A stretch of DNA of 64,000 nt from Streptomyces armeniacus (GTDB taxonomy: Bacteria > Actinomycetota > Actinomycetes > Streptomycetales > Streptomycetaceae). Positions 1,975-20,420 of this stretch are shown one piece after another. Made by a program: the position numbers and the translations under genes. The stretch is taken from positions 2,094,369-2,158,368 of the forward strand of contig NZ_CP031320.1 of the NCBI RefSeq assembly GCF_003355155.1, given 5' to 3'. The stretch's first letter is position 1, and each line of letters starts with the position of its first letter. Below the pieces are notes generated by a model that was given only the letters and a program-made list of their open reading frames with translations, ran no database searches and had not been told where the DNA came from.

Positions 1975-2134
1975 GCCGCGCTGCGGGCGCGTACGGCCGC
2001 CATGCGTGCGCGGGGGCGTACGGCGGTCGTACGCACCGTGGATTGTCAGACCCCTCGTGCAGGATCGTCGTCGGGGCCCGCTCCGCCGGCCCCGGCTCCC
2101 GTCCACGCGGGGGTCTTTTCCACGGGAGGCGTTC

Positions 2135-2584: not shown

Positions 2585-2590
2585 CGTCCG

Positions 2591-2623: not shown

Positions 2624-2725
2624 GGCGCCGGCCGGGAGGCACGGGGCCCGGTGCCGACCGGGAGGCCGGGGCCCCGTTCGGTGCCGGGCCTGGCCAGGCC
2701 AGACCAGGCCAGGCCAGGAGCGGTG

Positions 2726-4390: not shown

Positions 4391-4594
4391 CAGCTTTACG
4401 GTCTCCTGCCTCACGGCTTGCGGCAGACGCCGGGGCGCCCTGTTGGAACGGCGCGAATGTAATGGCCAGCGGCACACTCCTCGCCCCCTCCGACCGCGTA
4501 TTCATCCATACGTGTGAGGAGGCTCCCGGCGGCCACCACTCCCCCGGCCACCCGTACAGTGGCTCTCGTGCGCGACAGACGTGAAGGAGCTGCC

Positions 4595-5395
4595 ATGGGC
4601 GAGTTGCGCTTTGTGACGCTGGGACTGGGCGCGGAGGCGGTCGAGTACACCGAGGCGCTGGCCGAACAGCGCCGCGTGCACGCCGCCCGCTTCGCGGACG
4701 AGGTCCCGGACACCTGTCTCCTGCTGGAACACCAGCCGGTGTACACCGCGGGCCGTCGTACGGAGGACAGCGAGCGCCCGTTGGACGGCACCCCGGTGGT
4801 GGACGTCGACCGCGGCGGCAAGATCACCTGGCATGGCCCCGGACAGCTGGTCGGCTATCCGATCCTCAAACTGCCGCGCCCCGTCGACGTCGTCGCGCAC
4901 GTCCGCCGCATCGAGGAGGCGCTGCTCGGCGTCTGCGCCGAGTTCGGCCTGGAGACGACCCGTATCGAGGGCCGCAGCGGCGTGTGGGTGCTCGGCGACC
5001 CGGTGGCGGAACGGCAGTCGCCCGGCGGCGGCACGGACGGGCTCGGCGGGCTGTCGCTCGACTTCGACCCGCGCACCGACGACGAGTTCGACTCGCGGCT
5101 CAGCGGCCCCGAGTACGCCCCCTCCAACGCGGGCCAGCGCGGCGAGGACCGCAAGCTGGTCAACATCGGCATCCGCGTCGCCAAGGGCGTCACGATGCAC
5201 GGCTTCGCGCTGAACTGCGACTCGGACAACACCTCGTACGACCGCATCGTGCCGTGCGGCATCCGGGACGCGGGCGTCACGTCGCTCTCGGAGGAGCTGG
5301 GCAGGAATGTTCCGGTGACGGAAGTGCTTCCCGTAGTGGAGAAGCACCTGCGTGCGGTGCTCGAGACGGCAGTCCCACTGCCCCGCGCCGTCTGA
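4595..5395 (+). CDS. lipB: Octanoyl-[acyl carrier protein]:protein N-octanoyltransferase
   Basis: LipB moves the octanoyl group from acyl carrier protein to the lipoyl domains of 2-oxoacid dehydrogenases and GcvH in the cytoplasm, the first step of de novo lipoylation. 266 residues. Family marks visible: [14 protein letters not shown], the [20 protein letters not shown] block, the [20 protein letters not shown] segment carrying the catalytic Lys, and [13 protein letters not shown] with the catalytic Cys. An insertion of about 35 residues ([10 protein letters not shown]... to SNAGQRGED) lies before the Lys motif. The start ATG at 4595 follows AAGGAG. TACAGT at 4554-4559 could be a -10 box. lipA follows after 72 bp, the usual pair. 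Confidence 0.96.
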
Positions 5396-5467
5396 GCCGC
5401 ACAAGCACAGGCGTACGCTGGTGCACGCCGATGAATCGAAAGTACGAAGGTACGTAGGGAGCCGGAC

Positions 5468-6409
5468 GTGTCCGCTGTCGCACCCGACGGTCGCAAGATG
5501 CTCCGCCTGGAGGTCCGCAACAGCGAGACCCCCATCGAGCGCAAGCCCGAGTGGATCAAGACCCGCGCGAAAATGGGCCCCGAGTACAACGCGCTGCAGA
5601 GCCTCGTGAAGCGCGAGGGCCTGCACACGGTGTGCCAGGAAGCGGGCTGTCCGAACATCTTCGAGTGCTGGGAGGACCGCGAGGCCACGTTCCTCATCGG
5701 CGGCGAGCAGTGCACCCGGCGCTGCGACTTCTGCCAGATCGACACCGGCAAGCCCGCCGAGCTGGACCGCGACGAGCCGCGCCGCGTCGCCGAGTCCGTA
5801 CAGCAGATGGAGCTCCGGTACGCGACGATCACCGGCGTCGCCCGCGACGACCTCGACGACGGCGGCGCCTGGCTGTACGCGGAGACCGTCCGGCAGATCC
5901 ACGCGATGATGCCGGACACCGGCGTCGAGCTGCTGATCCCGGACTTCAACGCCGTTCCGGAACAGCTCGCCGAGGTCTTCTCGTCCCGCCCCGAGGTGCT
6001 CGCGCACAACGTCGAGACGGTGCCCCGGATCTTCAAGCGCATCCGGCCCGCGTTCCGCTACGAGCGCTCCCTGGAGGTCATCACCAAGGCGCGCGAGGAC
6101 GGGCTGGTCACCAAGTCCAACCTGATCCTGGGCCTCGGCGAGACCCGCGAGGAGGTCAGCCAGGCACTGCGCGACCTGCACGGCGCGGGCTGCGAGCTGA
6201 TCACCATCACCCAGTACCTGCGCCCGACGCCGCGGCACCACCCCGTCGAACGCTGGGTCAAGCCGCACGAGTTCGTGGAGCTGCAGGAGGAGTCGGAGGA
6301 GATCGGCTTCGCCGGTGTCATGTCCGGACCGCTGGTGCGCTCCTCGTACCGGGCGGGCCGGCTGTACCAGCAGGCGGTCGCGGCGCGGAGCGGCGCGCGG
6401 GTGGCGTGA
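5468..6409 (+). CDS. lipA: Lipoyl synthase, radical SAM
   Basis: LipA inserts two sulfurs into protein-bound octanoate using S-adenosylmethionine and two iron-sulfur clusters. 313 residues. The auxiliary cluster cysteines are C56, C61 and C67 ([13 protein letters not shown]); the radical-SAM cluster is C82, C86 and C89 (CTRRCDFC). The conserved ending [12 protein letters not shown] supplies the serine that also binds the auxiliary cluster. The GTG start at 5468 has TAGGGAG upstream (5456-5462). It works directly on the product of lipB, located 72 bp upstream. After the stop, 6410-6490 is occupied by degenerate copies of GGCGTACGGGCC rather than a clear terminator. Confidence 0.97.
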
Positions 6410-6525
6410 GCGGGTGGCGTACGGGCCTGGTGTGCGGATCCGGTGTACGAGCCTGGCGTACGGGCCCGGCGTACGGCTGCTGCTGGGCAGGTCGCGTGAG
6501 CTTCGCCTCAGGAGCCGTTGCTGGT

Positions 6526-6554
6526 TTGACCCCCCTGACATCCGCTGGTAACAC
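6526..6554 (+). promoter_or_regulatory. Putative housekeeping sigma promoter for the 56-residue gene
   Basis: TTGACC (6526-6531), a 17-bp spacer and TAACAC (6549-6554) lie about 50 bp ahead of the ATG at 6607. The -35 hexamer matches the HrdB-type consensus well, the -10 only in part. The 118 bp between lipA and this site hold repeats but no gene. Confidence 0.45.
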
Positions 6555-6606
6555 CGTTCTGTGATGGTGGAATCACCCATCGCTGCCACTCGGAGGGGAC
6601 GATCTG

Positions 6607-6777
6607 ATGCGTACGACGCTGCGCGCGCTGGAGGGACTGCTGCTGAGCGGCGGACAGCGGACCGCGCGCCGTAACGCCTGGACGGCGGTCCTCGACGACC
6701 GCCGCCGGGCGACGGCACGGGCCGAGGCCCAGCACGTACTGGAGACCCGCAAGCCGGTCGCACGCCCCGGCACGTAG
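6607..6777 (+). CDS. Small conserved hypothetical protein of the lipA-glnA interval
   Basis: 56 residues, beginning MRTTLRALEGLLLSGGQR and ending TRKPVARPGT. The ATG at 6607 has an excellent GGAGGGG (6592-6598) and its own promoter-like sequence. Codon use is like that of the neighbours. It is basic and helical and has no membrane segment or known motif. In Streptomyces a small ORF sits at this place between lipA and the DUF4191 membrane protein, which supports its being real. Function unknown. Confidence 0.75.
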   Translation: MRTTLRALEGLLLSGGQRTARRNAWTAVLDDRRRATARAEAQHVLETRKPVARPGT

Positions 6778-6879
6778 CCGCCGTTCCCGGGGCCCCGGCC
6801 GCTGCCACTTCCCGGGGGACAACCCCCGAACCCCCGGCCGGGACACCCGCCCTCGGCGGGGACACGTAAACTTCCTCCT

Positions 6880-7569
6880 ATGGCGAGGAAGGAAACATCC
6901 GAGAATCCAGGGCGGCTCAAGCAGATCGCCCTGACGTACAAGATGACCCGGCGTGCTGACCGGTGGATCGGCTGGATTCTTGCCGGCGTGGGGCTCGTCA
7001 CCTTGGGCGTCCTCCTCGCGTTCGGCTTCTGGATCGGGCACCCCGTCTATCTGGGCATCCTGGGCTTCCTGCTGGCCTTCCTCGCGATGGCGATCGTCTT
7101 CGGACGGCGCGCGGAGCGGGCGGCGTTCGGGCAGATGGAAGGCCAGCCGGGCGCCGCGGCCGCGGTGCTGGAGAACATCGGGCGCGGCTGGAACGTGACG
7201 CCGGCCGTCGCGATCAACCGCCAGCAGGACGTCGTTCACCGCGCCGTCGGCAAGGCGGGCATCGTGCTCGTCGGCGAGGGCAACCCGAACCGCGTCCGCT
7301 CCCTGCTGGCATCCGAGAAGAAGCGGATGGCGCGGGTCGTCTCCGACGTCCCGGTGCACGACCTGATCGTGGGCAACGACGAGGGCCAGGTCGAGCTGAA
7401 GAAGCTGCGGTCGAAGATGCTCAAGCTGCCGCGCGTGCTGGCGGGCGGGCAGGTCACCGAGACCAACGACCGGCTGCGGGCGATGGGCGACCTGATGAAG
7501 AACATGCCGATCCCGAAGGGCCCGATGCCCAAGGGCATGCGGCTGCCGAAGGGACAGGGCGGCCGCTGA
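6880..7569 (+). CDS. DUF4191 family membrane protein
   Basis: 229 residues. A charged N-terminus is followed by two adjacent membrane segments (about residues 27-49 and 53-73, WIGWILAGVGLVTLGVLLAF and a second VYLGILGFLLAFLAMAIVF), then a soluble domain with KAGIVLVGEG and a basic tail with PKGPMPKGM repeats. This is the actinobacterial DUF4191 family, conserved beside lipA and glnA; its function is not known. No Shine-Dalgarno sequence precedes the ATG. Instead TAAACT (6867-6872) ends 7 nt before it, so the mRNA may be leaderless. Convergent with the RDD gene. Confidence 0.88.
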   Translation: MARKETSENPGRLKQIALTYKMTRRADRWIGWILAGVGLVTLGVLLAFGFWIGHPVYLGILGFLLAFLAMAIVFGRRAERAAFGQMEGQPGAAAAVLENIGRGWNVTPAVAINRQQDVVHRAVGKAGIVLVGEGNPNRVRSLLASEKKRMARVVSDVPVHDLIVGNDEGQVELKKLRSKMLKLPRVLAGGQVTETNDRLRAMGDLMKNMPIPKGPMPKGMRLPKGQGGR

Positions 7570-7694
7570 GCCTCCGGGCGGCGGCAGCGAGGACGAGGGT
7601 ACGGGCGCGCGGCGCCGTGTCGGTCACGTACGGGCACGGGTACGCGCGCCCGTCTGCGTGTACGCGGGGCGGGCGCGCGCCTCAGCTACGGCAG

Positions 7695-7772
7695 CGGGGT
7701 CTCACGTCCGGTCAGCCCCGGCAGCGGGGTTTCACATACGGGGTCTCACGCCCGGACGGGTCTCACATACGG
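7695..7772. repeat. Four degenerate 17-bp repeats at the 3' end of the RDD gene
   Basis: Copies at 7695-7711, 7725-7741, 7739-7755 and 7756-7772 fit the pattern (C/A)(G/C)GGGT(C/T)TCAC(A/G)(T/C)(A/C)CGG; the first two belong to a 30-bp unit starting GCAGCGGGG. The stop codon of the RDD gene lies inside the last copy. The rest of the interval 7570-7694 is CGTACG-rich and holds no gene. Confidence 0.65.
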
Positions 7773-8233
7773 ACCTGCACCGCGCCCGCGAGCCGGTCGT
7801 GCAGGCCACGGCCGTCGCGGTCCCAGACGAGCGCGGGGAGCGCGAGGCCCAGCAGGACCGTACGGACCAGGACGCGCCACGGCACGAGCCTCCCGGCCCC
7901 GTCCGCGGCGACGACGCGCAGCCCGAGCAGCCGCTTGCCCGGCGTGCACCCCACCGTGCCCACGGTGAGCAGGCTCATCACCAGGAAGACGCCGAGCGTC
8001 CAGGTGTCCGCGGCCGACAGGTCACGGCCGGACAGCAGACCGTAACCGATGACGGCAGCCAGCCCCCAGTCGATGAAGATGGCCCCGAACCGCCGCCCGA
8101 GCGGCGCGATCGAGCCCGTTCCCTCGCGTGGGAGGCCGAGGCGCTCCCCGCGGTAGCCGAAGTCCGCGCCCATGTTCTCGGCTGTGGCGCGCGGGCCGGA
8201 GAGCCACGATCCGATCGCTTCCCTGTTGTCCAC
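7763..8233 (-). CDS. RDD family membrane protein
   Basis: 156 residues. RRFGAIFIDWGLAAVIGYGL carries the Arg-x-x-Asp arrangement that names the RDD family, followed by a second membrane segment (WTLGVFLVMSLLTVGTVG), the conserved CTPGKRLLGLRVV loop and a third segment (VLLGLALPALVW) ending DRDGRGLHDRLAG. Known RDD proteins are cation or small-molecule transport related, but most are undefined. It begins with GTG at 8233. No ribosome site is visible, and TACCGT on the minus strand (8240-8245) ends 6 nt before it, so leaderless translation is likely. Divergent from glnA. Confidence 0.9.
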   Translation of the reverse strand: MDNREAIGSWLSGPRATAENMGADFGYRGERLGLPREGTGSIAPLGRRFGAIFIDWGLAAVIGYGLLSGRDLSAADTWTLGVFLVMSLLTVGTVGCTPGKRLLGLRVVAADGAGRLVPWRVLVRTVLLGLALPALVWDRDGRGLHDRLAGAVQVRM

Positions 8234-8312
8234 GCATCAACGGTATCGCGGCGAAAAACGACCTTGCCGGCCGGAGTGCCCTGACGTGCGCTCGGCCAGG
8301 GGTGCGAGCCGG

Positions 8313-8350
8313 TTAACATCGGCGAAACAAATGGGTCATGCCCGAGAAAT
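8313..8350 (+). promoter_or_regulatory. GlnR double binding site upstream of glnA
   Basis: TTAAC-n6-GAAAC-n6-GTCAT-n6-GAAAT reads out at 8313-8317, 8324-8328, 8335-8339 and 8346-8350 with every spacer exactly 6 nt. This matches the known actinomycete GlnR a-site/b-site pattern gTnAc-n6-GaAAc-n6-GtnAC-n6-GAAAc. A TATGGT at 8361-8366 may be the -10 box, which would place GlnR at the -35 region, consistent with activation under nitrogen limitation. Confidence 0.8.
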
Positions 8351-8458
8351 GCCCTCTGCCTATGGTCGGGCGTCAGCGCGGCTCGTACAGGCAAGGTACA
8401 GGCTGAGCGCTCCAAGGCAGCAAGCCCGTCCCCTCGCGGCGGGACTAGGAGGAGTTGG

Positions 8459-9874
8459 ATGTTCCAGAACGCCGACGAGGCCCAGGGGTTCATCGCGGAC
8501 AACGATGTGAAGTTCGTCGATGTCCGCTTCTGTGATCTGCCGGGCATCATGCAGCACTTCACGATTCCGGCCGAGACCTTCGACCCCGGCGAGAGCCTGA
8601 TGTTCGACGGCTCGTCGATCCGCGGCTTCCAGGCCATCCACGAGTCCGACATGGCGCTCGTACCGGACCTGTCGACGGCCCGTATGGACGCGTTCCGCAA
8701 GGACAAGACGCTCAACATCAACTTCTTCATCCACGACCCGATCACCGGCGAGCAGTACAGCCGCGACCCGCGGAACGTGGCGAAGAAGGCCGAGGCGTAC
8801 CTCGCCTCCTCCGGTGTCGCCGACACCGCCTTCTTCGGCCCCGAGGCCGAGTTCTACGTCTTCGACGACGTGCGCTTCGAGACGAAGGCGAACGCCGGCT
8901 ACTACCACATCGACTCCGAGGCGGGCGCCTGGAACACCGGCGCCATCGAGGACGGCGGCAACCGCGGCTACAAGGTCCGCTACAAGGGCGGTTACTTCCC
9001 CGCCCCGCCCGTCGACCACTTCGCGGACCTGCGCGCCGAGATCTCCCTCGAGCTGATGAAGAACGGCCTCCAGGTCGAGCGCCAGCACCACGAGGTCGGC
9101 ACGGCCGGCCAGGCGGAGATCAACTACAAGTTCAACACGCTGCTCGCCGCGGCCGACGACCTGATGCTCTTCAAGTACATCGTGAAGAACGTCGCCTGGC
9201 GCAACGGCAAGACCGCCACCTTCATGCCCAAGCCGATCTTCGGCGACAACGGCTCGGGCATGCACGTCCACCAGTCCCTGTGGAACGGCGGCGAGCCCCT
9301 CTTCTACGACGAGCAGGGTTACGCGGGCCTCTCCGACACCGCCCGCTACTACATCGGCGGCATCCTCAAGCACGCCCCGTCGCTGCTGGCCTTCACGAAC
9401 CCGACGGTCAACTCGTACCACCGCCTGGTCCCCGGCTTCGAGGCCCCGGTCAACCTGGTCTACTCGCAGCGCAACCGCTCGGCGGCGATGCGTATCCCGA
9501 TCACGGGTGCGAACCCGAAGGCCAAGCGCGTCGAGTTCCGCGCCCCGGACCCGTCCTCGAACCCGTACCTCGCCTTCTCGGCCCTGCTCCTCGCGGGCCT
9601 CGACGGGGTCAAGAACAAGATCGAGCCGGCGGAGCCGATCGACAAGGACCTCTACGAGCTCGCCCCGGAAGAGCACGCGGGCGTCCCCCAGGTCCCCACC
9701 TCCCTCCCGGCGGTCCTCGAGGCCCTCGAGTCGGACAACGAGTACCTCCAGGCGGGCGGGGTCTTCACCTCGGACCTCATCGAGACCTGGATCGACTACA
9801 AGCGGACGAACGAGATCGCACCGATGCAACTGCGTCCGCACCCGCACGAGTTCGAGCTGTACTTCGACATCTAA
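8459..9874 (+). CDS. glnA: Glutamine synthetase type I
   Basis: Makes glutamine from glutamate, ammonia and ATP, the main ammonium entry. 471 residues, normal length for GSI. Signature DGSSIRGF about residue 50, [12 protein letters not shown] about 265, and adenylylation Tyr399 in [11 protein letters not shown], so control by GlnE-type adenylylation is expected. Start ATG at 8459 with AGGAGGAG upstream. A 5-bp hairpin GTCCC/GGGAC (8428-8445) sits directly before the ribosome site in the leader. GlnR boxes lie at 8313-8350. Codon use is extremely GC-biased, as expected for a highly expressed gene. The downstream neighbour is a perfect terminator and then the foreign-looking island. Confidence 0.98.
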
Positions 9875-9920
9875 ACCGAAGGAAGCCGGTCGACCCGGCC
9901 TCCGACGGTGATTGACCTCC

Positions 9921-9963
9921 GGTGACCCGCGGAAACGCCCTCTGGCGTCTTCCGCGGGTCACC
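9921..9963 (+). terminator. glnA terminator hairpin
   Basis: GGTGACCCGCGGAA (9921-9934) pairs perfectly with TTCCGCGGGTCACC (9950-9963); inside, ACGCC pairs with GGCGT around a CTCT loop, with one bulged C. It lies 46 bp after the glnA stop. It marks the left edge of the island; 9964-10165 beyond it contains no supported gene. Confidence 0.92.
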
Positions 9964-10165
9964 GTTCGTTTCCGCCGTGGGCACACTCCCAACAAGGGAC
10001 CGGCGCAGGGCTTCTGCAATCCACCGTTACTCTCCCCGGTATCGACAGCCGAGTCGGTACTGGCACGCACCGCACTCGGGGAGTTGCGGAACATGAGACA
10101 TGGGCCAGCGGAGCAGGAGTGTCGCGTAGGCGGGCGTTGACGCACGAGAGAAAGCCGGGAACCTG

Positions 10166-10852
10166 ATGAGTCGTCAGACGCAATACGGGGATCGCACTGC
10201 CTCGGATGGGACCGGGGACACCGAACGGGTACGGCAGCTCGGCGAGTCGCTGCTTGGCGACCTGCGACCCGGTACGCGGATCGCGGACATGTGTGTACGT
10301 GACGTGCAGGTATGGATCTTCTACCGCCTGAACGAGGGCGAGGACGCGCGGCGTCGAGCCTGTGCGGCAGGGTTGTTGAGTAACGAAGCCGCGGACATGG
10401 GCAGGGAGATGAGCGTCTTCAGGGCACTGCTCGGCCTGCCTGCCAGGATTCCGGTGCCGCTGTCTTCCATCACCGAGCGGGACCGGAGGCTGTTGCGGCG
10501 TTGTCCTGTGGGTTCAGTACGAGTGGCTGCAGGAGCAGCAGAGCGCCTGGCCGTGCCTCCAGTGCAAGTGGACCTGGCCATGGTCCAGGCCCAAAGGCTG
10601 ACGACTGGCGCAGTGTCGCGTGCCGGGAGATTCGGCTCGTACGCCCCCTCGACAGCCATCAGGGTCACGGGGCCTGTGGTCGACTCACTCGTCGGCCTGC
10701 AAGCCGAGTGGTTCGGACACGGAGTCGTGCACGACAATGCCGTGGTGGGCTGTCGGCTCGTGGCGCTGCCACGGGTCTTGACGAACAGCCGCCATACGGA
10801 GGCCGCATGGAGGTTCTCGGAGCAGGTTTACGGACGTCTACGGCCCCGATAA
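10166..10852 (+). CDS. Hypothetical protein of the 10-20 kb island
   Basis: 228 residues, unrecognised. The ATG at 10166 has only a weak AAAGCCGGGA upstream. The N-terminal 100 residues are charged and helical (ERVRQLGESLLGDLRPGTR, then VWIFYRLNEGEDARRRACAA); from about residue 100 there are short beta-like stretches (PVGSVRVAAGAAERLAVPPV) and a conserved-looking FGHGVVHDNAVVGCRLVALP near the end. No signal peptide or membrane segment. Base composition is less GC-rich than glnA. It ends 12 bp from the end of the convergent zinc-motif gene, so the two probably share the same foreign origin. Confidence 0.65.
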   Translation: MSRQTQYGDRTASDGTGDTERVRQLGESLLGDLRPGTRIADMCVRDVQVWIFYRLNEGEDARRRACAAGLLSNEAADMGREMSVFRALLGLPARIPVPLSSITERDRRLLRRCPVGSVRVAAGAAERLAVPPVQVDLAMVQAQRLTTGAVSRAGRFGSYAPSTAIRVTGPVVDSLVGLQAEWFGHGVVHDNAVVGCRLVALPRVLTNSRHTEAAWRFSEQVYGRLRPR

Positions 10853-10864
10853 ACGCCTGCCCTA

Positions 10865-12070
10865 TCAGCGAATTCCCGCCCATTCTCTGAGCGCGGGATC
10901 TGGTTTGAAGACGCTCCGCCTCAGTTGCCGGTTGATCTCCTCGTGGGAGGCGACGGCTTGCTCACAGAGTGAGCGCCACATGCTGCGCCGCACGTTCTTG
11001 TCAGGCTCTGCCTGCAATTGAGCAGCCCAAGGAGCCCAGACCGCAATGTTGTGCAGATCAGCCTGGCCAACCCCTTCCACGGTGTCCTCGAATCTGCCCA
11101 GTGCTCGACCATCGCAATACGTGCAAGAGCAGTATGGGGTGCCTTGAGCCCCGTATACCTCGTGCAAGGTGCTGCACCGGAAGTACCGCATGAGTTGCGG
11201 ATGCAGCACCGTGGCTCTGCGCCCGGTGGGCGGCGGCCCGCCGTCGCTGGGCGGTCGGCCGTGCCGCATCGAGGTTTGGACACCGATCGCCGAGAACACC
11301 GCCCCGTGCGCAAGAGCGTCCAGACCGGCGAGGTCAGTGCGGAGCAGTCCGGTACGGGGCACCCTGACGAGTTCGCGCAGCGCAGTGGCCGCTCCCCTCC
11401 GTTCAAGGGGATTGCGAGTGTCGCACAGAACGAGCGCCTTGGTCACCGGCAGAGCGGAGAGTTGCGTCGTGAGGAAGTCAAGATGGCGCTCTCGGAGCCA
11501 CCCCTTGTCTATTGGCAGCACCACAATGTCCTCAGCCCCGTTCAGCTCGCTCGCGCGCTCCATGACTGCACGAAGGGCGCCGCAATCGTCCGCTCCCACG
11601 TAGCCGGTGGGCGTGAGCGCGATCCCGCTTCCGCCCCCGCGTTGGCCCTGCAACAACCCGTCGAGTTGATCATCTGCTTCTCCGAGCAGCGATAGCTGGC
11701 CGGTGCCGCCTCCCTTCGGCAGACAGAAGGGCTCCGCGATGGTGGCTCGGTGATGCACGTAGCGCTCCGGATCGACCACGACCGCCTCTACAGCGCCGCG
11801 CCTGCGCTGCGACTCCTCGCGGGCCTTGGCTCCGCAGAAGACGATGCCACTCTCCACGCCGTGCAGTACGTCCGACAGCACGACGTCGACGGGGGCACCG
11901 GGACGAGAGTGGAGGAGGACTCGGTCAAGCAGCAAACTCCAATCAGACTGATATCCACCCCGAAGCATGCGATCGTGCATATGACCCCCAGGCTGATGGG
12001 TTGCACTTGTCATGACCAGCGTGGGATTGCCTATATCTCGCCACAAGGGCGCGAAAAGGCCATACTCCAT
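10865..12070 (-). CDS. Putative tRNA-guanine-transglycosylase-like zinc protein
   Basis: 401 residues from ATG at 12070; a later ATG at 12013 (MTSATHQPGG) is possible, since neither start has a good ribosome site. The clearest feature is C314-x-C316-x-x-C319 followed by H340 in ADLHNIAVW, the arrangement of the structural zinc site of tRNA-guanine transglycosylases (CxCxxC then His-Asn), the family that swaps guanine for 7-deazaguanine in tRNA and, in the DpdA branch, in DNA. The N-terminal APLWRDIGNPTLVMTSATHQ could be the opening strands of that barrel. I cannot identify the catalytic aspartates with certainty, so the assignment is tentative. No queuosine or deazaguanine pathway gene is near. 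Confidence 0.55.
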   Translation of the reverse strand: MEYGLFAPLWRDIGNPTLVMTSATHQPGGHMHDRMLRGGYQSDWSLLLDRVLLHSRPGAPVDVVLSDVLHGVESGIVFCGAKAREESQRRRGAVEAVVVDPERYVHHRATIAEPFCLPKGGGTGQLSLLGEADDQLDGLLQGQRGGGSGIALTPTGYVGADDCGALRAVMERASELNGAEDIVVLPIDKGWLRERHLDFLTTQLSALPVTKALVLCDTRNPLERRGAATALRELVRVPRTGLLRTDLAGLDALAHGAVFSAIGVQTSMRHGRPPSDGGPPPTGRRATVLHPQLMRYFRCSTLHEVYGAQGTPYCSCTYCDGRALGRFEDTVEGVGQADLHNIAVWAPWAAQLQAEPDKNVRRSMWRSLCEQAVASHEEINRQLRRSVFKPDPALREWAGIR

Positions 12071-12286
12071 CCCAGGCGCCGAGTAGCAGGCCCGGGCGTC
12101 AAGCCCCCAAGCGAGGCAAGCGCCTGGCCAGGCAGTCCGGAGCGAAGCACTAAAACGACCTCAACCCGGGCGGCAGAATCCGCTCTGCGGTAGCAAGGTT
12201 TCCGCAAGGCACATGCAAGCAATCCGCCAAAGGCCGCCGGGCAGCCCCTCTCTCGAAGGAATGTAGCCGACGTACAGGGGGATGTC

Positions 12287-12430
12287 GTGATCACGTTCGA
12301 CAGGCGTGGAGAAGCGACCCAGGTTGTTCTCGCAGAGGGCTCCCGGCACGGGGGCGAAGGGCTACCGCGCGGCGCAGGTCTGCCCGCATCGTCGGGCCGG
12401 CTCGGCTCGCGCTTGGGGGGCGTCCGTTGA
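12287..12430 (+). CDS. Possible 47-residue ORF coupled to the GT-B-like gene
   Basis: A GTG at 12287 has AGGGGG at a spacing of about 5-6 nt and opens a frame of 47 codons (starting MITFDRRGEATQVVLAEG) whose TGA at 12428-12430 overlaps the ATG of the next gene at 12430. Such TGATG overlaps are typical of translational coupling. The protein is unknown. The upstream 12071-12286 holds no gene and must contain the divergent promoters for both directions. Could also be a leader peptide or chance. Confidence 0.35.
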   Translation: MITFDRRGEATQVVLAEGSRHGGEGLPRGAGLPASSGRLGSRLGGVR

Positions 12431-13686
12431 TGGCGGGGGGCTTATGGCTGAACAGTCCGGTCGGTTTGGGCGCGAACAGCCGGGTGCTGCGCCGGGGATG
12501 CCGCAACGTGCTGGTCGTGGTTCCGTTCATGGTCGCTGGCATCCGGCTGATGGACGTTCTGGCGCTGCTGGAGTCCGATCACCGTGTGGTGGTGATGTTC
12601 ACCGTGGCGCCCGCGCGGAACGGAGCAGTGTGCCACGGAGCGGAAGAGTTCGTGCGAGCACAGGGTGGGTTGCTGCTTCCGTGGCAGCAGGCCGTGCAGT
12701 GCGAGTTCGACCTTGTTCTCGCTGCAAGTGAGACAGCAGTCGAGCAGCTGCACGGACAGGTAATGCTGCTCCCTCACGGGGCCGGAGCGGTGCCATCCAG
12801 GCTCCGTGCCCGGAGTTCCGGTCCGGCTGCGGGTCCGGCGCATGGGCTGGATCGTGGTTCGCTGGTGCACCGTGGGCGGTTGGTACCGGCCGCTTTGCCG
12901 CTCACACACCGGGATGAACTCGCGATTCTGCGCGAGTCATGTCCGGAAGCGGTCCCCGTTGCGGTCGTGGCCGGCGATGTTTGTTTCGACCGGTTGGTGA
13001 CAAGTGTGCCGTGGCGGTCTGCCTACCGGCGCGCACTGGGAGTGCGCCCGGACCAGAAGCTCGTGGTGTTGACCTCCACCTGGCAGCCCGAGTCCGTCCT
13101 GGGGACTCATCCGGATCTACTCGACCGGCTGGTGCGTGAGTTGCCGCGTACTCAATACAGGGTGGCGGCGGTGCTGCACCCAAATATCTGGGGCGTGCAC
13201 GGGGCTTGGCAGGTGCAAGCTTGGTTGGCGGATTGTCTGCGGGAGGGCCTGCTGTTGTTGCCACCGGAGGAGGGCTGGCGGGCCGCACTGGTGTCTGCGG
13301 ACGCGATCATCGGTGATCACGGCTCGGTAACCAGTTATGGAGCGGCAATCGGCTGTCCGGTGATGCTGACTGCTTCCGGCCGCGAGGGGTTTTTGCGGCC
13401 AGGAAGCCTGGCTGACGTGGTACGGCAGGAGGCTGCCCATCTGTGTACTGACATGCCGCTGACCCCGCAGATGGAGGAGATTGCAAACGGACATCACTCG
13501 TGCCGACAGAAAATGGTGTCCGCGCTGATCACTTCCGTACCGGGACAGGCCGCCGGCATCCTGCGGCGGACCATGTATCGCCTGCTGGACCTTCCCGAGC
13601 CTGGCAGGGCGCCGACCAACGCACCGGTGCCACTTCCGGTCCCTGTGGGCTGCCGAGGCGGCCTGGCGATCGAGGAGGTCGGATGA
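12430..13686 (+). CDS. GT-B-fold-like protein related to CDP-glycerol glycerophosphotransferases
   Basis: 418 residues. The N-terminal half has a Rossmann-like strand CRNVLVVVPFMVAGIRLMDVL and ends in VMLLPHGAG; the C-terminal half begins with KLVVLTSTWQPES and contains DAIIGDHGSVTSYGAAIGCPVML. A TSTWxPES strand followed by the D-x-x-I-x-D-x-x-S-x-x-x-Y segment is the layout seen in CDP-glycerol glycerophosphotransferases and other GT-B enzymes. It lacks the usual first HGTP motif, so transfer chemistry is uncertain. ATG at 12430 overlaps the stop of the preceding small ORF; its own TGA overlaps the next ATG (ATGA at 13683). Base composition is less GC-rich than the flanks. Confidence 0.6.
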   Translation: MAGGLWLNSPVGLGANSRVLRRGCRNVLVVVPFMVAGIRLMDVLALLESDHRVVVMFTVAPARNGAVCHGAEEFVRAQGGLLLPWQQAVQCEFDLVLAASETAVEQLHGQVMLLPHGAGAVPSRLRARSSGPAAGPAHGLDRGSLVHRGRLVPAALPLTHRDELAILRESCPEAVPVAVVAGDVCFDRLVTSVPWRSAYRRALGVRPDQKLVVLTSTWQPESVLGTHPDLLDRLVRELPRTQYRVAAVLHPNIWGVHGAWQVQAWLADCLREGLLLLPPEEGWRAALVSADAIIGDHGSVTSYGAAIGCPVMLTASGREGFLRPGSLADVVRQEAAHLCTDMPLTPQMEEIANGHHSCRQKMVSALITSVPGQAAGILRRTMYRLLDLPEPGRAPTNAPVPLPVPVGCRGGLAIEEVG

Positions 13687-14219
13687 GTCTCAGGCCGTGC
13701 CGACACTCGCTCCTCGGCGGGCAGATCGCCGGTAGTACGGGGGAGCGCTTACATGTCACGCGATGCGACTGGCACAGCCGGAACGATGCGGGCGTAGGCG
13801 TGTGGGTCTGGGGAGAAACCGCGAGGCAGCGTTACGAGTGTCCCTGCTCGGGGGCCGACAGGTTCCTGGTGGTGGCGGAAGGAGCTGCGGTCGGGTGGAG
13901 ACACAGTGCTGATGTGGTGATCGGTCGTCCCCAGCCGACGACCAGCCGAGCTGTGCGGGTCGCAGAGTCCTGGCTGGCCGCAGCCCCCGGCTGTTCTCTT
14001 GTCGCTGTCTCAGTGGGCGAGCGTGAGACCCTGCTCCAAACCCAGGCTGGGCAAGTTCTGCACCATCGCGCTCACAGAGCGGCGTGTGCTCAGGCCTGCG
14101 GCGTCTGTGTCTATCCGTGGATTGCTATCGGGGCTCCTGTCGGCCAGCTCCCCGGACTATCCAGTGTGGGTACCGGAAGAGCACACAACGACGGAGAAGA
14201 ATCAGGTGCCGTCGGCTAG
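13683..14219 (+). CDS. Hypothetical protein, translationally coupled
   Basis: 178 residues, unrecognised. It starts in an ATGA overlap with the GT-B-like gene and follows GAGGAGG, so it is almost certainly cotranslated with it. The protein is rich in Cys (RCDWHSRND, YECPCSGADRF, CAQACGVCVYPW), a pattern that could bind metal; it has no membrane segment. Its last 18 bp overlap the 3' end of the convergent STAND gene. Function unknown; the coupling suggests it acts together with the GT-B-like protein. Confidence 0.55.
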   Translation: MSLRPCRHSLLGGQIAGSTGERLHVTRCDWHSRNDAGVGVWVWGETARQRYECPCSGADRFLVVAEGAAVGWRHSADVVIGRPQPTTSRAVRVAESWLAAAPGCSLVAVSVGERETLLQTQAGQVLHHRAHRAACAQACGVCVYPWIAIGAPVGQLPGLSSVGTGRAHNDGEESGAVG

Positions 14220-16613
14220 CTGCGCCTTGATCCTGCCAAGCGCGCGGTCGACTCTCCCTAAGTCCGGCGCACCGGCTTCGCGGTAGAAGGCCCGTGATCG
14301 CCTAAGGAGGTTGCTTGCGACTGACAGCTCCGTGAGCGCTTCAGCGGCTTCGCCCCAAACCATCAGTACTTGAGCCCTGTACTGGCTGGATCCTGATTCG
14401 GCGACGATTGACCATGCTTCCTGGGCCAGTGTGATTGCTTCGGAGGCGTGGCCCGCCCTCGTATATGCGTCAGCCAGCCAGACAGTGGTCATCGCCTTAA
14501 CCATGTTGTCACACAATGACTCGGCCAGGTCGCGCCCACGGGTAAGCTCGCCAATGGCTTCCTCGATCCTCCCGGCGGCCAACAAAGCCTGGCCGAGCCG
14601 ACGTCGGCCGAGTGCCTCTGCTCTTACGCGGCCTGCCTCGCGATCGAGCGCGACACCTTGCCGTAATACCTCTACGGCTTGGTCGAACCGCCCCAGAGAG
14701 CGATACGCCATGCCTAGGAGTCCCAGGGCTTCTGTCTCGGCCAGTTCGTGATTGGCCTCGCGTGCCGCCTCGAGCGAGGCGACCCCTTGTTGGAGGGCCT
14801 CCTGCTTGCGGCTCAGATTGTGAAAGGCGAAGCCGAGATGATGACGCATACGTGAAAGGGCAGCGGGATCGCCGCAGCGTGACGCGGCCTGGATACCGAA
14901 CCCGTATGCGGTCATCCAATCCGGGAAGTGCTTGCGGTGGAGGAACAATGACCACATCGACTCAGCGAGTTGCCATACAAGGGCGTCGAAACCCCGTTCG
15001 TAGCCAGTACGTAGGAGAGCCATCAGGTTTGGCAGCTCTCTTTCGAGCATCGCAAGTGCATCTCTGCTCGTTTGCCAAGCATACGAGACATCACTGTCTC
15101 CATGCTCAGGACGGAGATGCCAATCCAGCGGGGTCACCGCACGGTCACCAGCAGCAGTAAAGGCGAGGTAATACCTCAAGAGGCGACAAACTACTCCATC
15201 GCGCGTGGGCGCACTGTCCTCGGCTTCAGCGCGCTGACACGCATGCAGGCGGACGAGATCGTGGAAGTAATACCGGCCGGAGTTGTCGGAATTGAGGAGG
15301 CTGGCGTCCACGAGGCTCTCCAACACCACTTCCGTGTCGCCCTTCGACACCTGCAGAGCCGCTGCGGCAGCTTCGGGAGAGAAGCCTGGTCCCGGATGCA
15401 GGCCCAGCCATCTGTAGGCTCGTGCCGCCTCCGGTGGCAACCCCTCATACGAAAGGTCGAACACGCTCAAGACTGAGACCTCGTCCATCGCCAGCGCCTG
15501 GAGCCGTCGTTGTTCGTCCTTGAGTTCCCGAACCACCCGGGCGATTGGCCACTGGGGCCGTGTCACCAGTCGCGCTCCTACGATGGACAACGCCAGAGGA
15601 AGCCCTGCGCACAGGGACACAAGGCCGGCAACAGCGTCAGCCTCCGCCGAGACTCGATGCTTCCCGACAGTGGTTGTCAGCAGCTCCCTGCCCGCTTGCT
15701 GGTGCAGCGGAGCGATGTGAAGGAAGTCAGCTCCGTCCATGGTCAAGCCACCCAGGCGCCATCTCGTTGTCACCACAACAGTGCTGGCTACCGAAGAAGG
15801 CAGAAGCGCCCGCACTTGAGCTGCTGAGACCGCGTTATCCAACAGGATTGCGATGCACCCGCGGGCAGTCAGCGAGCGGAAGAGACCGGCTGCTTCCTCG
15901 GCTTCGGCTGGGACTTGATCCCCTTCGACGCCCAGAGCCCGGAGAAATCCCCCCAGCACCGAGCCCATCGGCTCCGGTTCTCCCGCAGCACCTGGCATCA
16001 AGTCGGCATAGAGCTGACCGTCAGGATATTGATCAGCAACTTCGTGCAGCCATCGCAACGCCAAGGTGGTCTTGCCGACGCCTCCGGGACCGCTCATCAC
16101 TGCCAGCGCGGGCCCTCCTTTCCGGGGCGTGTGATGGATGCGGTGCAGTGCGCCGAGCTCTTCGCATCGGTTTGTGAAGTGTGCGGGCGCTGGTCTGAGT
16201 TGTCGTGGTACCAACTGCGGGCGAATCACAGCGTGTTCGGCCTGGTGGAAGTGGACATCCCCGAGGATCGAGCCTGACTGAAGACTCGGGCCGTAGACCT
16301 GCGCTGAGCCGCTGATGCTGTTGGTAGACCTCTGTGGCTCTGTCTGGTGGTGCCGCAGCCACGTGTCCAGGTCTGACCTGAACGCGACGTCGCCAGCGGC
16401 CTCCTCGGCCAACGAACTCGACAGCCGCCACATTGCCTGCAACGGGTCGCCCTGGGCGCGGCAGGCTTCATCCCAGTACCGCGCCGGCTCTTCCCAGGGT
16501 TCATATCGTGTGCCCACAAGCCGATTGAGCGCCTGGCCCGCCGGTGAGCTGTGCAGTGGTCGATTGGCAATCATGGCCGATAACAGCGCAACGACCATCT
16601 CCTCGTCCCGCAC
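14202..16613 (-). CDS. STAND ATPase: unknown N-terminal domain, NB-ARC and TPR repeats
   Basis: 803 residues. Residues 1-100 form a helical domain (MVVALLSAMIANRPLHSSPAG, later LAEEAAGDVAFRSDLDTWL), followed by a beta-rich linker NSISGSAQVYGPSLQSGSIL, resembling the linkers after effector-associated domains in bacterial conflict proteins. The NB-ARC part has Walker A GPGGVGKT (175-182), a Walker B-like AILLDNAVSAAQVRALLP, a sensor VVVTTRWRLG and GLPLAL. The C-terminal 270 residues are TPR repeats. No DNA-binding motif is seen. The GTG at 16613 was chosen for the GGGGGGAG seven nt ahead; an upstream GTG at 16643 has none. Divergent from the SARP-type gene. Such ATPases act as signal switches or in phage defence. 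Confidence 0.8.
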   Translation of the reverse strand: MRDEEMVVALLSAMIANRPLHSSPAGQALNRLVGTRYEPWEEPARYWDEACRAQGDPLQAMWRLSSSLAEEAAGDVAFRSDLDTWLRHHQTEPQRSTNSISGSAQVYGPSLQSGSILGDVHFHQAEHAVIRPQLVPRQLRPAPAHFTNRCEELGALHRIHHTPRKGGPALAVMSGPGGVGKTTLALRWLHEVADQYPDGQLYADLMPGAAGEPEPMGSVLGGFLRALGVEGDQVPAEAEEAAGLFRSLTARGCIAILLDNAVSAAQVRALLPSSVASTVVVTTRWRLGGLTMDGADFLHIAPLHQQAGRELLTTTVGKHRVSAEADAVAGLVSLCAGLPLALSIVGARLVTRPQWPIARVVRELKDEQRRLQALAMDEVSVLSVFDLSYEGLPPEAARAYRWLGLHPGPGFSPEAAAAALQVSKGDTEVVLESLVDASLLNSDNSGRYYFHDLVRLHACQRAEAEDSAPTRDGVVCRLLRYYLAFTAAGDRAVTPLDWHLRPEHGDSDVSYAWQTSRDALAMLERELPNLMALLRTGYERGFDALVWQLAESMWSLFLHRKHFPDWMTAYGFGIQAASRCGDPAALSRMRHHLGFAFHNLSRKQEALQQGVASLEAAREANHELAETEALGLLGMAYRSLGRFDQAVEVLRQGVALDREAGRVRAEALGRRRLGQALLAAGRIEEAIGELTRGRDLAESLCDNMVKAMTTVWLADAYTRAGHASEAITLAQEAWSIVAESGSSQYRAQVLMVWGEAAEALTELSVASNLLRRSRAFYREAGAPDLGRVDRALGRIKAQLADGT

Positions 16614-16842
16614 GGTGCCTCTCCCCCCGGTCCGACTGGACACAACATCAGTTTGGGCGCACGCTGCTGGGTTCCCTCCGAAGCCACACCCGAGCGTTTC
16701 CTACCCGGTGTGAGTGGAGATCGACCGCACCCAATCGCCATGAGACCAATTTCAGACCTCCTTTCACAATGACATGGTCATACGAACCGAGCCCGTGTCA
16801 CTCTCGACCCACGGAACATGCCGAACCGGCGGGAGGGCGCTG

Positions 16843-19800
16843 GTGGAGCTCCGCATACTGCTTCTCGGCGCAGTCGCGTTGCAGGCTGGGAACGAACGCA
16901 GCCCGCTCGGGTCTCCCAAGGAGCGCCTGACACTCGCCTCACTGGCTTGGGATACGGGCAGAACGGTCGGGGTGGACACCCTCGTCCACCGGGTGTGGGA
17001 CGATCACCCGCCAGCGAAACCGCGCGAGGCGTTGTACGTACACATTCACCATATCCGTAAGACTATTTGGGCGCTTGCCGGCCCGAACGCTCCTGCGGTG
17101 ATCAGTCGTACACACACCTATACGCTCCAGGCAGATCCGGACACCGTTGATCTGCGTCACTACCTCAACCTTCTCGACCAGAGCCAGGGCTTGGCCGAAG
17201 GGGGCAGCGAACGAGATGCCCTGAAGGCATACCAGGCGGCGTCACGACTATGGGGTGGCGAGCCGCTGGCCGGACTGCCGGGAGCCTGGGCGACCGAAAT
17301 CCGACGCTTCGTCGTGGAGAAAAACCTTGCGGCCGCCCTGAAACAGGCGGACATAGCGCTGAGGCTCGGCCGTTTCGAGGAGGCCGTTGCCGGCTTACAG
17401 CCACTTGTGGAGCAGCACTCGACGAAGGAGCCCGTCGCGCGGCAACTCGCGCTGGCGCTCCACGGATGCGGGCGCACCGAGGAAGCAGCCCGGTTGATGC
17501 AGCGCACGCTGCATCAACTGCGACGGTCAGGCACTGACCCGAGTGATGACCTCGCTCGCATCCACCAGGGCATCCTGATTGGCACACCGGTCGACGCCCT
17601 GCTGCCCGCCCCGCCCACGTCTCTCGCTCGCAGAAGCAGCTCCGGACCCACGGACTCTCTGCCACCCGAAGGAATCTGGGTCGGCCGCAACTCTGAGCTG
17701 GACAGGATGACTGCCGCCTCTGCCCAAGCAAGCGGCTCGGTGCGCCCCCAGGCCATCACGGGCATGGCCGGCTCTGGAAAGACGGCGCTGGCCGCACGTG
17801 CGGCGCGCCGGATGCATGAACGCTTTCCTGACGGAAGACTGGCTATCAACCTACGGGGGCACTCCCTCCACCAGCCACCGATGGCCCCCGTTGAAGCTCT
17901 CCGAGAGCTTCTGCGGCGCCTCGGCACACCCGTACAAGAGCTTCCTCAGGATCTGGAGAGCCTGGTCACGTTGTGGCGCGCCGAGGCCCGGAACCGCAGG
18001 TTCGTGGCCCTCTTGGACGATGCCGCCGGCGTCGAGCAAGTTGGCCCGCTACTGCCTGGAGAATCCGCTTCTCTGATAATTGTCACCAGCCGCTACCAAC
18101 TGGCCGCCCTGCCCCGTGTCCAGCACATCGCGCTGGACGTGCTCGCCCCCGCCGATGCCGTCGCACTTCTCCGCCACACGCTTGGCGAGGAGCGGACGGC
18201 GAATCAAGTCGAAACGGCCACACTGGCCCGTTTGTGCGGGTACTTGCCCCTAGCATTGGACATCACGGCCAGCCGTCTTCTCGCGCGACCTTCCTGGACT
18301 GTCACCGACCTGGTGAAGCGCTACAACCAAGCACCCAGGAGGCTTCCGGAAATCCGCGACTCCTACCGGGCGATGACCAAAGTACTTGCCGTCTCCTACC
18401 AGGCGCTCACTCCCGTACAGCAGAGGGCATTTCGCTGTCTCGGTCTACACTTCGGCACGGAGTTCGGCCCCGGGGCCGCTGCCGCCCTCAGTGGACTTCC
18501 AGTCGACGAGACAGAATATGTACTGGAGGAACTGCTAATATGCCATCTTATCGCGGAGCCGGCGCCGCATCGCTATCAACTTCACGACCTTTTACGTGAA
18601 TACGCCGCAGGCCTCGCTGAACACGACTCGGCAACGGATAGACACCACTCGCTCGATCGTCTGCTCGACCACTATTTGCGAACCGCAGACCAGGCTGACC
18701 GGCGCGCCTACCCGCATCGTTTGCGCATCGATCTGCCCCCCGCCGCGGCCTCCCTTGTATGGCAGGAGGACGACGCTCAGCGCTGGTTCACCACCGAGGG
18801 CCCGAACCTGTTGGCGGCCCTGGAGTACGCCCGAGCCCACGGCTCACGCGGTCAACTGGCCATGATGGCCCACGCCTTGGCGGGCTTCCTGAGCAGTGAG
18901 GGCTACCTGACCACGGCGATCACCGTGCTCCGCGAAGCCGTTGCGTACTGGCAGACGATCGAAAGTGCAGGAACCACCGGCCGAGCCCTGATCGACTTCG
19001 CCACTGTCTGCGCCAGCGCCGGCACCTACGACACAGCCATCGAGAGCGCCCGTACAGCCTTGGAGATAGCAGAGAACACCGCTGACGTCGCCCTCGAAGC
19101 AGAAGCTCTTCACCAACTGTCCATCGCTTTCTGGCACACGGCCGAGCCTGAAGCCCTTAAGTTGCAACAGCGAGCCCTGCGGCTCCGCCTGGCCAAGTCC
19201 GACCGGCTCCAGCAAGGCAGGAGCTTCAACATGATGGGCACCATCTGCCTCAGCTTCGGGCAACAGAAAGAGGCGCTCAAGTACTTCCTGGACGGTCTCG
19301 CACGTTTCCGAGATGTCGGCGACCGGCGTGGCCAGTTCATCGCACTCAACAATATGGCGGAATTGTACAAAGAGACTGGAAACCTGGACAGCGCCATCAG
19401 CGCCTATCGGCGCTCGATCAAGCTCCTCCAGGCTCTCGGCAGCAAGGGGCAGTACGCGGTTCTTCAGATCAACCTGGCGGACACGCTGCGGGCCAGCGGA
19501 AAACCGAGAGAGGCCCTGGAACTCTACAGGGCGGCCCTACCCGTACTGCGCAGCACAGGAGACCGGCGCAGCGAGGCGATCGCCCGCAATGGAATCGGGA
19601 AAGTCCTCCAGGACACGGGGAGAAGTGAAGAAGCGCTCGCCCACCACGCCGCCGCACTGGCCATCGCTCGGACTATACATTCCACTCTGGAAGAAATCCA
19701 AGCGCTCCGCACGCTGGGCGAGGCGGAAGCCGCCACGGGGCGACTGGCACAAGCCTACGCCCATCTGGAGACAGGGCTCGCTCAGAGCCGCAGAATAGGG

Positions 19801-19869
19801 GTTCGCTCCGAAGAGGACGAGACTTTGGCAGCGCTCGCCCGCATATGGCACGGAAACACACTCTCGTGA
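16843..19869 (+). CDS. AfsR-type SARP regulator with NB-ARC and TPR domains
   Basis: 1008 residues. Order of parts: winged-helix OmpR-like DNA-binding domain (about 1-90, ending VHIHHIRKTIWAL), bacterial transcriptional activator domain (95-250), NB-ARC ATPase with Walker A GMAGSGKT near residue 307 and ALLDDAAGVEQVGPLLPG, GYLPLAL, then many TPRs (650-1000, e.g. FNMMGTICLSFGQQKEALKY). AfsR proteins integrate signals and activate secondary metabolism or local genes. GTG at 16843 was selected because GGGAGGG ends 5 nt before it and the wing begins at once; an earlier GTG/ATG in frame at 16774 lacks a ribosome site. No biosynthetic cluster is adjacent, so its target is probably inside the island. 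Confidence 0.9.
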   Translation: MELRILLLGAVALQAGNERSPLGSPKERLTLASLAWDTGRTVGVDTLVHRVWDDHPPAKPREALYVHIHHIRKTIWALAGPNAPAVISRTHTYTLQADPDTVDLRHYLNLLDQSQGLAEGGSERDALKAYQAASRLWGGEPLAGLPGAWATEIRRFVVEKNLAAALKQADIALRLGRFEEAVAGLQPLVEQHSTKEPVARQLALALHGCGRTEEAARLMQRTLHQLRRSGTDPSDDLARIHQGILIGTPVDALLPAPPTSLARRSSSGPTDSLPPEGIWVGRNSELDRMTAASAQASGSVRPQAITGMAGSGKTALAARAARRMHERFPDGRLAINLRGHSLHQPPMAPVEALRELLRRLGTPVQELPQDLESLVTLWRAEARNRRFVALLDDAAGVEQVGPLLPGESASLIIVTSRYQLAALPRVQHIALDVLAPADAVALLRHTLGEERTANQVETATLARLCGYLPLALDITASRLLARPSWTVTDLVKRYNQAPRRLPEIRDSYRAMTKVLAVSYQALTPVQQRAFRCLGLHFGTEFGPGAAAALSGLPVDETEYVLEELLICHLIAEPAPHRYQLHDLLREYAAGLAEHDSATDRHHSLDRLLDHYLRTADQADRRAYPHRLRIDLPPAAASLVWQEDDAQRWFTTEGPNLLAALEYARAHGSRGQLAMMAHALAGFLSSEGYLTTAITVLREAVAYWQTIESAGTTGRALIDFATVCASAGTYDTAIESARTALEIAENTADVALEAEALHQLSIAFWHTAEPEALKLQQRALRLRLAKSDRLQQGRSFNMMGTICLSFGQQKEALKYFLDGLARFRDVGDRRGQFIALNNMAELYKETGNLDSAISAYRRSIKLLQALGSKGQYAVLQINLADTLRASGKPREALELYRAALPVLRSTGDRRSEAIARNGIGKVLQDTGRSEEALAHHAAALAIARTIHSTLEEIQALRTLGEAEAATGRLAQAYAHLETGLAQSRRIGVRSEEDETLAALARIWHGNTLS

Positions 19870-20110
19870 TGACTGAGTTCAAGTCACCCAGCATATGCCA
19901 GTGACATTCACAGAGAAGCAGAGCGTTACGCGAGCAAAGATTTGCACTACGGTGGACACCCTGTCGCTACATTGACCAGGGGTGCGCCTTCTAGAATTTG
20001 CCTGTTCAGGCACCTACGTGATCTCATACTTGAGCACCAACCACGTCGGGCGAAAACCCTGCAGGTTGGTGTGCGTCAGTAAAACTAGTAATGGCTTCGA
20101 GAGGCGCAAC

Positions 20111-20203
20111 GTGTTCCAAATAGCCAGGCGAGTGCTCTATGCAGCGCTCGTCTGCATTCCATACATCGTCGCTCATGGAGTGCAGCCACCAGGTGCAATG
20201 TAG
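20111..20203 (+). CDS. Possible 30-residue hydrophobic peptide
   Basis: GTG at 20111 has GAGAGG at 20099-20104 with a 6-nt spacer. The peptide reads FQIARRVLYAALVCIPYIVA in its middle: two Arg, then a stretch of about 15 hydrophobic residues, then HGVQPPGAM, like a short membrane-inserted peptide. The stop lies 3 nt before the terminator stem. Small toxins, leader peptides and membrane regulators all fit; nothing proves translation. Confidence 0.4.
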   Translation: MFQIARRVLYAALVCIPYIVAHGVQPPGAM

Positions 20204-20206
20204 GCA

Positions 20207-20248
20207 GCGAGTGTGCCGGGTGCCCAGCTCGGCACACTCGCTTTTTTT
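20207..20248 (+). terminator. Strong intrinsic terminator with U tract
   Basis: GCGAGTGTGCCG (20207-20218) pairs perfectly with CGGCACACTCGC (20230-20241), followed by seven T (20242-20248). Canonical rho-independent terminators with a clean U run are rare in this genome; the other terminators in the window are bare GC hairpins. Confidence 0.93.
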
Positions 20249-20420
20249 GGTGCCTCTCAACCCCGTTCTCCTCGGAGCGCGGGCCGGCGGGGGTTCGACG
20301 GGCCGGGTAGTGGGGGGTTGTCCCGGAAATGGCAACAAGAGTTGTCGTTACGGCGCGCTTGGCCGCAGTCTGGCCGTACGGCCGAGAGACCAGCGGACCC
20401 ATCCGGAACGGGAGTGCCCC

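Follow-up and report, generated by a model that had tools for sequence, protein, structure and literature searches.

Among the closest known systems to the one reported here are AfsR and PimR, regulators with a Streptomyces antibiotic regulatory protein (SARP) head. According to the available sections of PMC10936776, the SARP head of AfsR binds two 11-bp repeats, and ATP relieves the inhibition exerted by its NOD/TPR part (TPR, tetratricopeptide repeat). In the part of PMC5930380 that was available, the main PimR operator consists of three heptamers with 4-bp spacers and the consensus CGGCAAG. The present analysis concerns a 64,000-nucleotide stretch of Streptomyces armeniacus (contig NZ_CP031320.1, positions 2,094,369 to 2,158,368; hereafter, the window), from a host genome made of a single contig of 8,083,249 bp. 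Downstream of glnA, the window carries a low-GC insert encoding a regulator in which a SARP head is joined to a signal transduction ATPase with numerous domains (STAND), here called SARP-STAND. The most informative result is a conserved predicted operator, which links this AfsR-like STAND regulator to an operon for a GT-B-fold enzyme. The features of this cassette (module B) are as follows:

12193..12221, forward strand: predicted SARP operator, heptamers GCAAGGT, GCAAGGC, and GCAAGCA with 4-bp spacers, called from footprint and enrichment
12430..13686, forward strand: GT-B-fold enzyme, start probably ATG at 12430 (TTG at 12427 in the list of open reading frames, ORFs)
13683..14219, forward strand: small protein of 178 aa, its start overlapping the GT-B stop, recognised by a family profile
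14202..16643, reverse strand: STAND ATPase (NB-ARC and TPR; Pfam NB-ARC 9.4e-12), convergent to the GT-B operon
16774..19869, forward strand: SARP-STAND regulator (BTAD, NB-ARC, TPR; Pfam BTAD 1.7e-20)

In Pfam, the SARP-STAND protein matches BTAD (74.3 bits, cut-off 22.1), NB-ARC (27.1 bits, cut-off 23.5), and TPR_12 (125 bits, cut-off 30.1), with Trans_reg_C slightly below its cut-off (26.1 versus 26.2 bits). It has the layout of a large SARP (SARP-NOD-TPR), with BTAD following an OmpR-type DNA-binding domain, and with NB-ARC/NOD and TPR domains. Its identification as AfsR itself was rejected, the score for the NCBIfam AfsR equivalog NF053617 being 415.1 versus a cut-off of 1430.

The operator was first spotted in an alignment of the GT-B upstream regions of four Streptomyces, as three GCAAG heptamers repeating every 11 bp. 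The pattern (G/T)CAAG-N6-(G/T)CAAG was counted on the GT-B strand, up to 1.5 kb upstream of the GT-B gene, in 81 loci, namely the window and 80 GT-B loci, the four discovery Streptomyces included. These 80 are the best of at least 540 loci confirmed among at least 598 stretches, so the sample leans towards the query. Near the GT-B gene, 36 exact sites were found (in 32 loci) versus 0.15 expected, with 4 elsewhere; other spacings from 7 to 16 gave 0 to 3 sites near GT-B, spacing 12 excepted. With one mismatch allowed, 44 of the 81 loci have a site (79 sites, 4.13 expected). Twenty further GT-B loci (L021–L040) include some from S. armeniacus itself; L021/L106 is the only pair with shared sequence between them and the 80-locus set, and excluding L021 leaves 19 loci that played no part in finding the motif. 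Eight of them carry an exact site and 16 a site with at most one mismatch (15 exact sites versus 0.04 expected, and 25 versus 0.74), the top de novo repeat per locus often differing from the operator. The operator is missing in 11 of the 12 loci without a SARP gene in both sets, and site and gene are associated (Fisher p 0.0012 for the 81 loci and 0.0041 for the 19, uncorrected for relatedness). In the genome of S. armeniacus, the exact triple occurs once, at the GT-B promoter (backwards control 2).

Several observations weigh against this operator. At spacing 12, the CAAG repeat gave 10 sites near GT-B and 16 elsewhere in the 81 loci. Even at one mismatch, the operator was unseen in 37 of the 81 loci; it is lacking in 29 of the 73 loci with a SARP gene, including most Lentzea and Amycolatopsis loci, and L023 carries it with no SARP gene nearby. 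The 36 exact sites are not independent, since Actinomadura promoters that closely resemble one another contribute 14 and the discovery sequences (the window, L105, and L107) another six. The double repeat by itself is not rare in the genome of S. armeniacus (17 occurrences, two of them at the GT-B promoter; backwards control 85), and no -10 box was identified at that promoter.

The conserved operator, its co-occurrence with the SARP gene, and the PimR and AfsR precedents lead to the proposal that SARP-STAND drives the GT-B operon. The NB-ARC/TPR part would keep the regulator inactive until its release by a signal together with ATP. The released SARP head would then bind the 7+4-bp direct repeats at 12193–12221 and recruit RNA polymerase to the operon of the GT-B enzyme and the small protein, presumably activating it. 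The second STAND (14202–16643) may serve as a cognate sensor or modulator. Together, the two operon products would transfer or remodel a nucleotide-activated sugar or polyol phosphate, with an envelope polymer as the most likely target.

The composition of the cassette was followed across the 80 loci, which belong to Streptomyces, Actinomadura, Nonomuraea, Lentzea, Amycolatopsis, Micromonospora, and other genera. In 68 of them, the GT-B gene faces a convergent STAND gene; of the remaining 12, nine had space for one and three are cut by a contig end, and four Nonomuraea loci lacking it (L156, L160, L162, L172) have a STAND match elsewhere in the locus. SARP-STAND adjoins GT-B in 72 loci (upstream in 57, downstream in 5, and in 10 upstream with a predicted start that is too long and overlaps GT-B), and both regulators are present in 63. 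The small-protein profile matches downstream of GT-B in 54 loci. Where the sequence-only reading, an earlier interpretation of this DNA from its letters alone, had seen a three-ORF coupled unit, conservation backs two coupled ORFs only. Of the 20 further loci, 19 have a STAND match and 16 a SARP-STAND distinct from it (split in L031). In the closest relatives, L105–L107, the GT-B protein is 74–77% identical, the gene order of the window is kept, and GC content at third codon positions (GC3) is 0.72–0.77; GC3 medians across the 80 loci are 0.86–0.89. As the GC-frame gene caller is unusable on the insert and on L105–L107, genes there rest on homology. In Actinomadura loci (L113–L117, L119, L122, L130, and similar ones), at about 8.0–9.98 kb, the main GT-B gene is preceded by a second gene of the GT-B cluster (about 372–404 aa), and it is upstream of this leading gene that the repeat operator stands. 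Among the titles and abstract starts listed by literature searches of open PubMed Central (PMC) papers, none described the quartet.

Alternatively, module B could be an anti-phage or stress system resembling the NLR (nucleotide-binding, leucine-rich repeat) type, with invaders sensed by the STANDs and a GT-B enzyme that modifies an envelope receptor or serves as a growth-arresting effector. In the available part of PMC7159879, STAND ATPases have a central place in the conflict systems of multicellular bacteria, and some have glycosyltransferase domains. The presence of many paralogous loci per genome, such as the four GT-B matches in S. armeniacus, would also fit. PADLOC, however, leaves the GT-B protein and the ORF at 13500–14219 unmatched and recognises the STANDs only as a generic TPR protein and a weak helicase. 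PHROGs returned nothing useful for the insert proteins. A defence role for module B is considered unlikely.

As the sequence-only reading had supposed, the operon enzyme has a GT-B fold; it fits both the TagF type and the UDP-GlcNAc 2-epimerase fold, with 10–15% identity to TagF/TarL and to non-hydrolysing UDP-GlcNAc 2-epimerases. Against an assignment as a transferase, the protein belongs to no Pfam family, and the fold cannot separate epimerase from transferase. The CDP-glycerol glycerophosphotransferase family PF04464 does not match the window protein and is weak in 6 of 47 relatives (best E 0.017), no epimerase family matched at E 1 in 47 GT-B members, and the family profile gave nothing useful against solved structures. 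The family counts 1,553 scored proteins; the 120 listed have no Pfam domain and, where named, are only hypothetical or uncharacterized. Some loci contain extra genes, namely PfkB-type kinases (both representatives tested) and, in 9 of the 80, a cluster of which the one member tested is an NDP-sugar dehydrogenase. These genes count in favour of the proposal above, and also of a specialised-metabolism cassette, with SARP-STAND as a cluster-type activator and a GT-B enzyme that makes or decorates a small secreted glycoside rather than the cell wall. Natural-product glycosyltransferases among the GT-B fold neighbours point the same way, as do SARPs that activate antibiotic biosynthesis (PMC10936776, available sections). 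Nevertheless, no conserved polyketide synthase, nonribosomal peptide synthetase, or RiPP core was recognised in the 80 loci, whose flanks are partly annotated, and the cassette can be just four genes. This alternative carries some weight but is rather improbable; the envelope-directed switch is preferred here.

Module B lies in DNA that differs from its surroundings, with the following limits:

9964..20350, no strand: low-GC, low-GC3 insert, from the glnA terminator to the 20.4-kb methyltransferase gene
20206..20242, forward strand: terminator-like hairpin with a T run, 16-pair stem, near the right insert end

GC is 0.640 in 9964–20350 versus 0.724 over the remaining window. Six insert genes have a GC3 of 0.67–0.73, versus a median of 0.942 for the 40 called genes outside, only one of which falls below 0.87, and CGTACG occurs once in 10,287 bp of insert versus 194 times in 53,713 bp outside. 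The change in DNA character downstream of the glnA terminator, the near absence of CGTACG, the strong terminator-like hairpin near the right end, and the named genes (orf10166, the TGT-like, GT-B-like, small, STAND, and SARP-STAND genes; TGT, tRNA-guanine transglycosylase) were thus all read correctly from the letters, as were the two head-to-head ATPases with TPRs, one of them SARP-headed (NB-ARC, TPR, and BTAD matched in Pfam). So was the lack of a tRNA or attachment site, since no tRNA was found in the insert and an attachment repeat was rejected, no direct repeat between the ends exceeding about 13 bp. No mobility gene was identified at the insert, where no search aimed at integrases was made. 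The mini RNA/peptide unit, proposed at 19982–20250, did not survive: the insert matches no Rfam family, and 19870–20420 has no nucleotide match in the fetched loci except the window's own copy.

Acquisition, which the sequence-only reading had suspected, agrees with the relatives. Insert genes are absent downstream of glnA in all 16 examined (the contig of L094 ends about 4 kb past glnA). A gene at about 31.85 kb of the window, which by eye we take to be ArsC-like, lies 2.3–15.6 kb downstream of glnA in 10 of the 16, so the entire interval is variable, and the low-GC stretch makes up just part of this. In L105 (Streptomyces sp. HNM0575), module B also adjoins glnA, about 2.9 kb off and inverted relative to the window. 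The similarity around glnA breaks off right past the terminator in both sequences (at 9976 in the window), which, with the glnA-side position of the cassette, supports a common insertion site. Between glnA and the cassette, L105 has about 2.8 kb of low-GC DNA (17415–20173) with one called gene of 269 aa.

Outside the insert (1–9963 and 20351–64000), CGTACG is itself strikingly frequent, the next palindrome of the same composition occurring 43 times. Its density is 3.0–5.05 per kb in four other stretches of the same genome (L038–L040, L088) and 0.5–1.95 per kb in the glnA regions of the 16 relatives. A maximal-order Markov model expects 187 versus the 194 observed, so the excess is carried by longer context and not by the final base; a literature search found no report of it.

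The left part of the insert holds two further genes, which form module A:

10166..10852, forward strand: protein of 228 aa, unknown family, convergent partner of the TGT-fold gene
10865..12070, reverse strand: TGT-fold protein of 401 aa (AlphaFold2 model and VIA-align), zinc ligands C314, C316, C319, and H340

The sequence-only reading had joined everything in the insert into one conflict or nucleic-acid-modification island, in which the TGT-like enzyme, the transferase, and the STAND switch act jointly. All genes do share one insert and an equal base composition. Yet a survey of 100 GT-B loci (tblastn and profile) turned up no TGT-like or 10166 gene, and none of 30 TGT-like loci yielded a GT-B, STAND, or SARP gene (tblastn); moreover, the operator sits at GT-B, its exact triple occurring once in the genome of S. 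armeniacus. Among 150 genomes of the genus, S. armeniacus included, the GT-B protein was matched in 70 and the 10166 protein in 11; the TGT-like protein was matched in 9, all of which also have the 10166 match. The two modules were seen together at the window only. The sequence-only reading had named separate occurrence of the genes in relatives as its own refutation; by that test a single acquired functional unit falls, leaving two conserved modules, and joint action is very improbable. The STANDs and the SARP are partners of the GT-B operon rather than of the TGT-like gene; of the island with its own regulator, the acquired-looking DNA, the folds, the STANDs, and the SARP stand, and the unity does not. 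The preferred explanation, which as a whole is somewhat more likely than not, is that the insert was horizontally acquired and holds two independent modules, module B being a self-contained switch and module A a separate system.

Module A is the less common of the two. The 10166-type and TGT-fold genes are convergent in 20 of 31 loci, with tail-to-tail ORF overlaps of about 56–80 bp in L223 (5528–5607), L227 (8972–9051), and L232 (10350–10405). Searches with the 10166 protein in Pfam, NCBIfam, and PADLOC found nothing at E 0.1, and neither family profile gave anything useful against solved structures. The transglycosylase-like character noted from the letters holds at the level of fold: TGT structures make up the 44 best VIA-align rows for the AlphaFold2 model, in a re-ranking of Foldseek's 1000 candidates. 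Against this, plain Foldseek gave no significant match, only mixed barrel proteins (best E 0.092). The zinc ligands (C-x-C-x2-C...H) are invariant in 18 of 18 members. The catalytic aspartates of TGTs are D102 and the nucleophile D280 (Zymomonas numbering). D100 fits the DSGG aspartate in all 17 members having the segment, with a 14-column profile match to six full-length canonical TGTs at 5% probability, and the position matching the nucleophile is G in 12, A in 4, T in 1, and S in 1 of 18 (manual mapping). The TGT family PF01702 was matched by none of 8 members at E 1 and by no gene in 31 genomes, S. armeniacus included. No queuosine pathway gene was found in the host, the QueC model TIGR00364, which detects 12 of 14 controls, included.

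In other genomes, XRE-ImmA often accompanies module A. Neighbours examined with PADLOC and Pfam, hand-picked in batches of 10, include GajA/GajB at one locus, while other loci have Tn7-like genes. In L081 (9016–19617) and L243 (4640–8771), TGT-like genes stand beside TniQ and transposase-type genes, as if they were Tn7-like cargo. The GajA/GajB and Tn7-like neighbours, together with the fold and the invariant zinc ligands, would suit an active base-exchange system modifying DNA or RNA, of the Dpd kind. However, the residues other than aspartate that manual mapping places at the nucleophile position in all 18 members, the failure to find QueC in the host, and the lack of any PADLOC match for either protein make this quite unlikely. 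The preferred reading is that module A is a separate system, probably for phage or mobile-element conflict, whose TGT-fold protein is most likely a binder of nucleic acid, or an enzyme that modifies it and needs no preQ0. None of the titles and abstract starts listed by the same literature searches described this TGT-fold family.

A broader two-part reading is offered tentatively, and as a whole is rather doubtful. Module B would be an NLR-like transcriptional switch, undescribed and Actinobacteria-wide, leading from paired STANDs through a repeat-operator promoter to a TagF/epimerase-fold enzyme and a small protein, with envelope glycans remodelled on attack. Separately, the TGT-fold family would have lost the catalytic aspartate and, with an XRE-ImmA protease regulator, have been recruited as a nucleic-acid sensor or modifier in queuosine-free organisms.

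In the author's judgement, the signal sensed by large SARP-STAND regulators and the genes they control are largely open questions. As the conserved operator (its triple form unique in the genome) ties SARP-STAND to a two-gene output, signal, operator, and output become testable in one small cassette. The uncharacterised GT-B family would gain a context, and a TGT fold in hosts without detected queuosine genes raises the question of its binding or modification target.

Compared with known systems, the window regulator shares with AfsR and the SARP-LAL protein PimR a SARP head, NB-ARC, and TPRs, as well as a predicted operator of direct repeats, each about 7 bp long and set in an 11-bp register, with the GCAAG core of the PimR consensus. 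It differs from AfsR in scoring under the AfsR cut-off and in having a second STAND and a GT-B operon as partners. The enzyme departs from TagF/TarL (CDP-glycerol or CDP-ribitol polymerases) and the non-hydrolysing epimerases by having no above-cut-off Pfam match and by its proposed STAND regulation. The STAND-centred conflict systems of PMC7159879 resemble module B in that compact, conserved actinobacterial loci carry STAND ATPases, with glycosyltransferase effectors mentioned; SARP and GT-B have 0 mentions each in the available part of that source. With TGT, QTRT1, archaeosine TGT, and DpdA, the TGT-fold protein has in common the fold, the zinc site, and a putative DSGG-like aspartate, and it is set apart by the lack of a sequence family match, a nucleophile position that manual mapping gives as non-aspartate, and a host in which no queuosine genes were found. 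Finally, the BRC systems with TGT, as presented in the available part of PMC12839542, also place a TGT homologue in a putative conflict setting, whereas the partners of the TGT-fold family described here are a 10166-type protein and XRE-ImmA.

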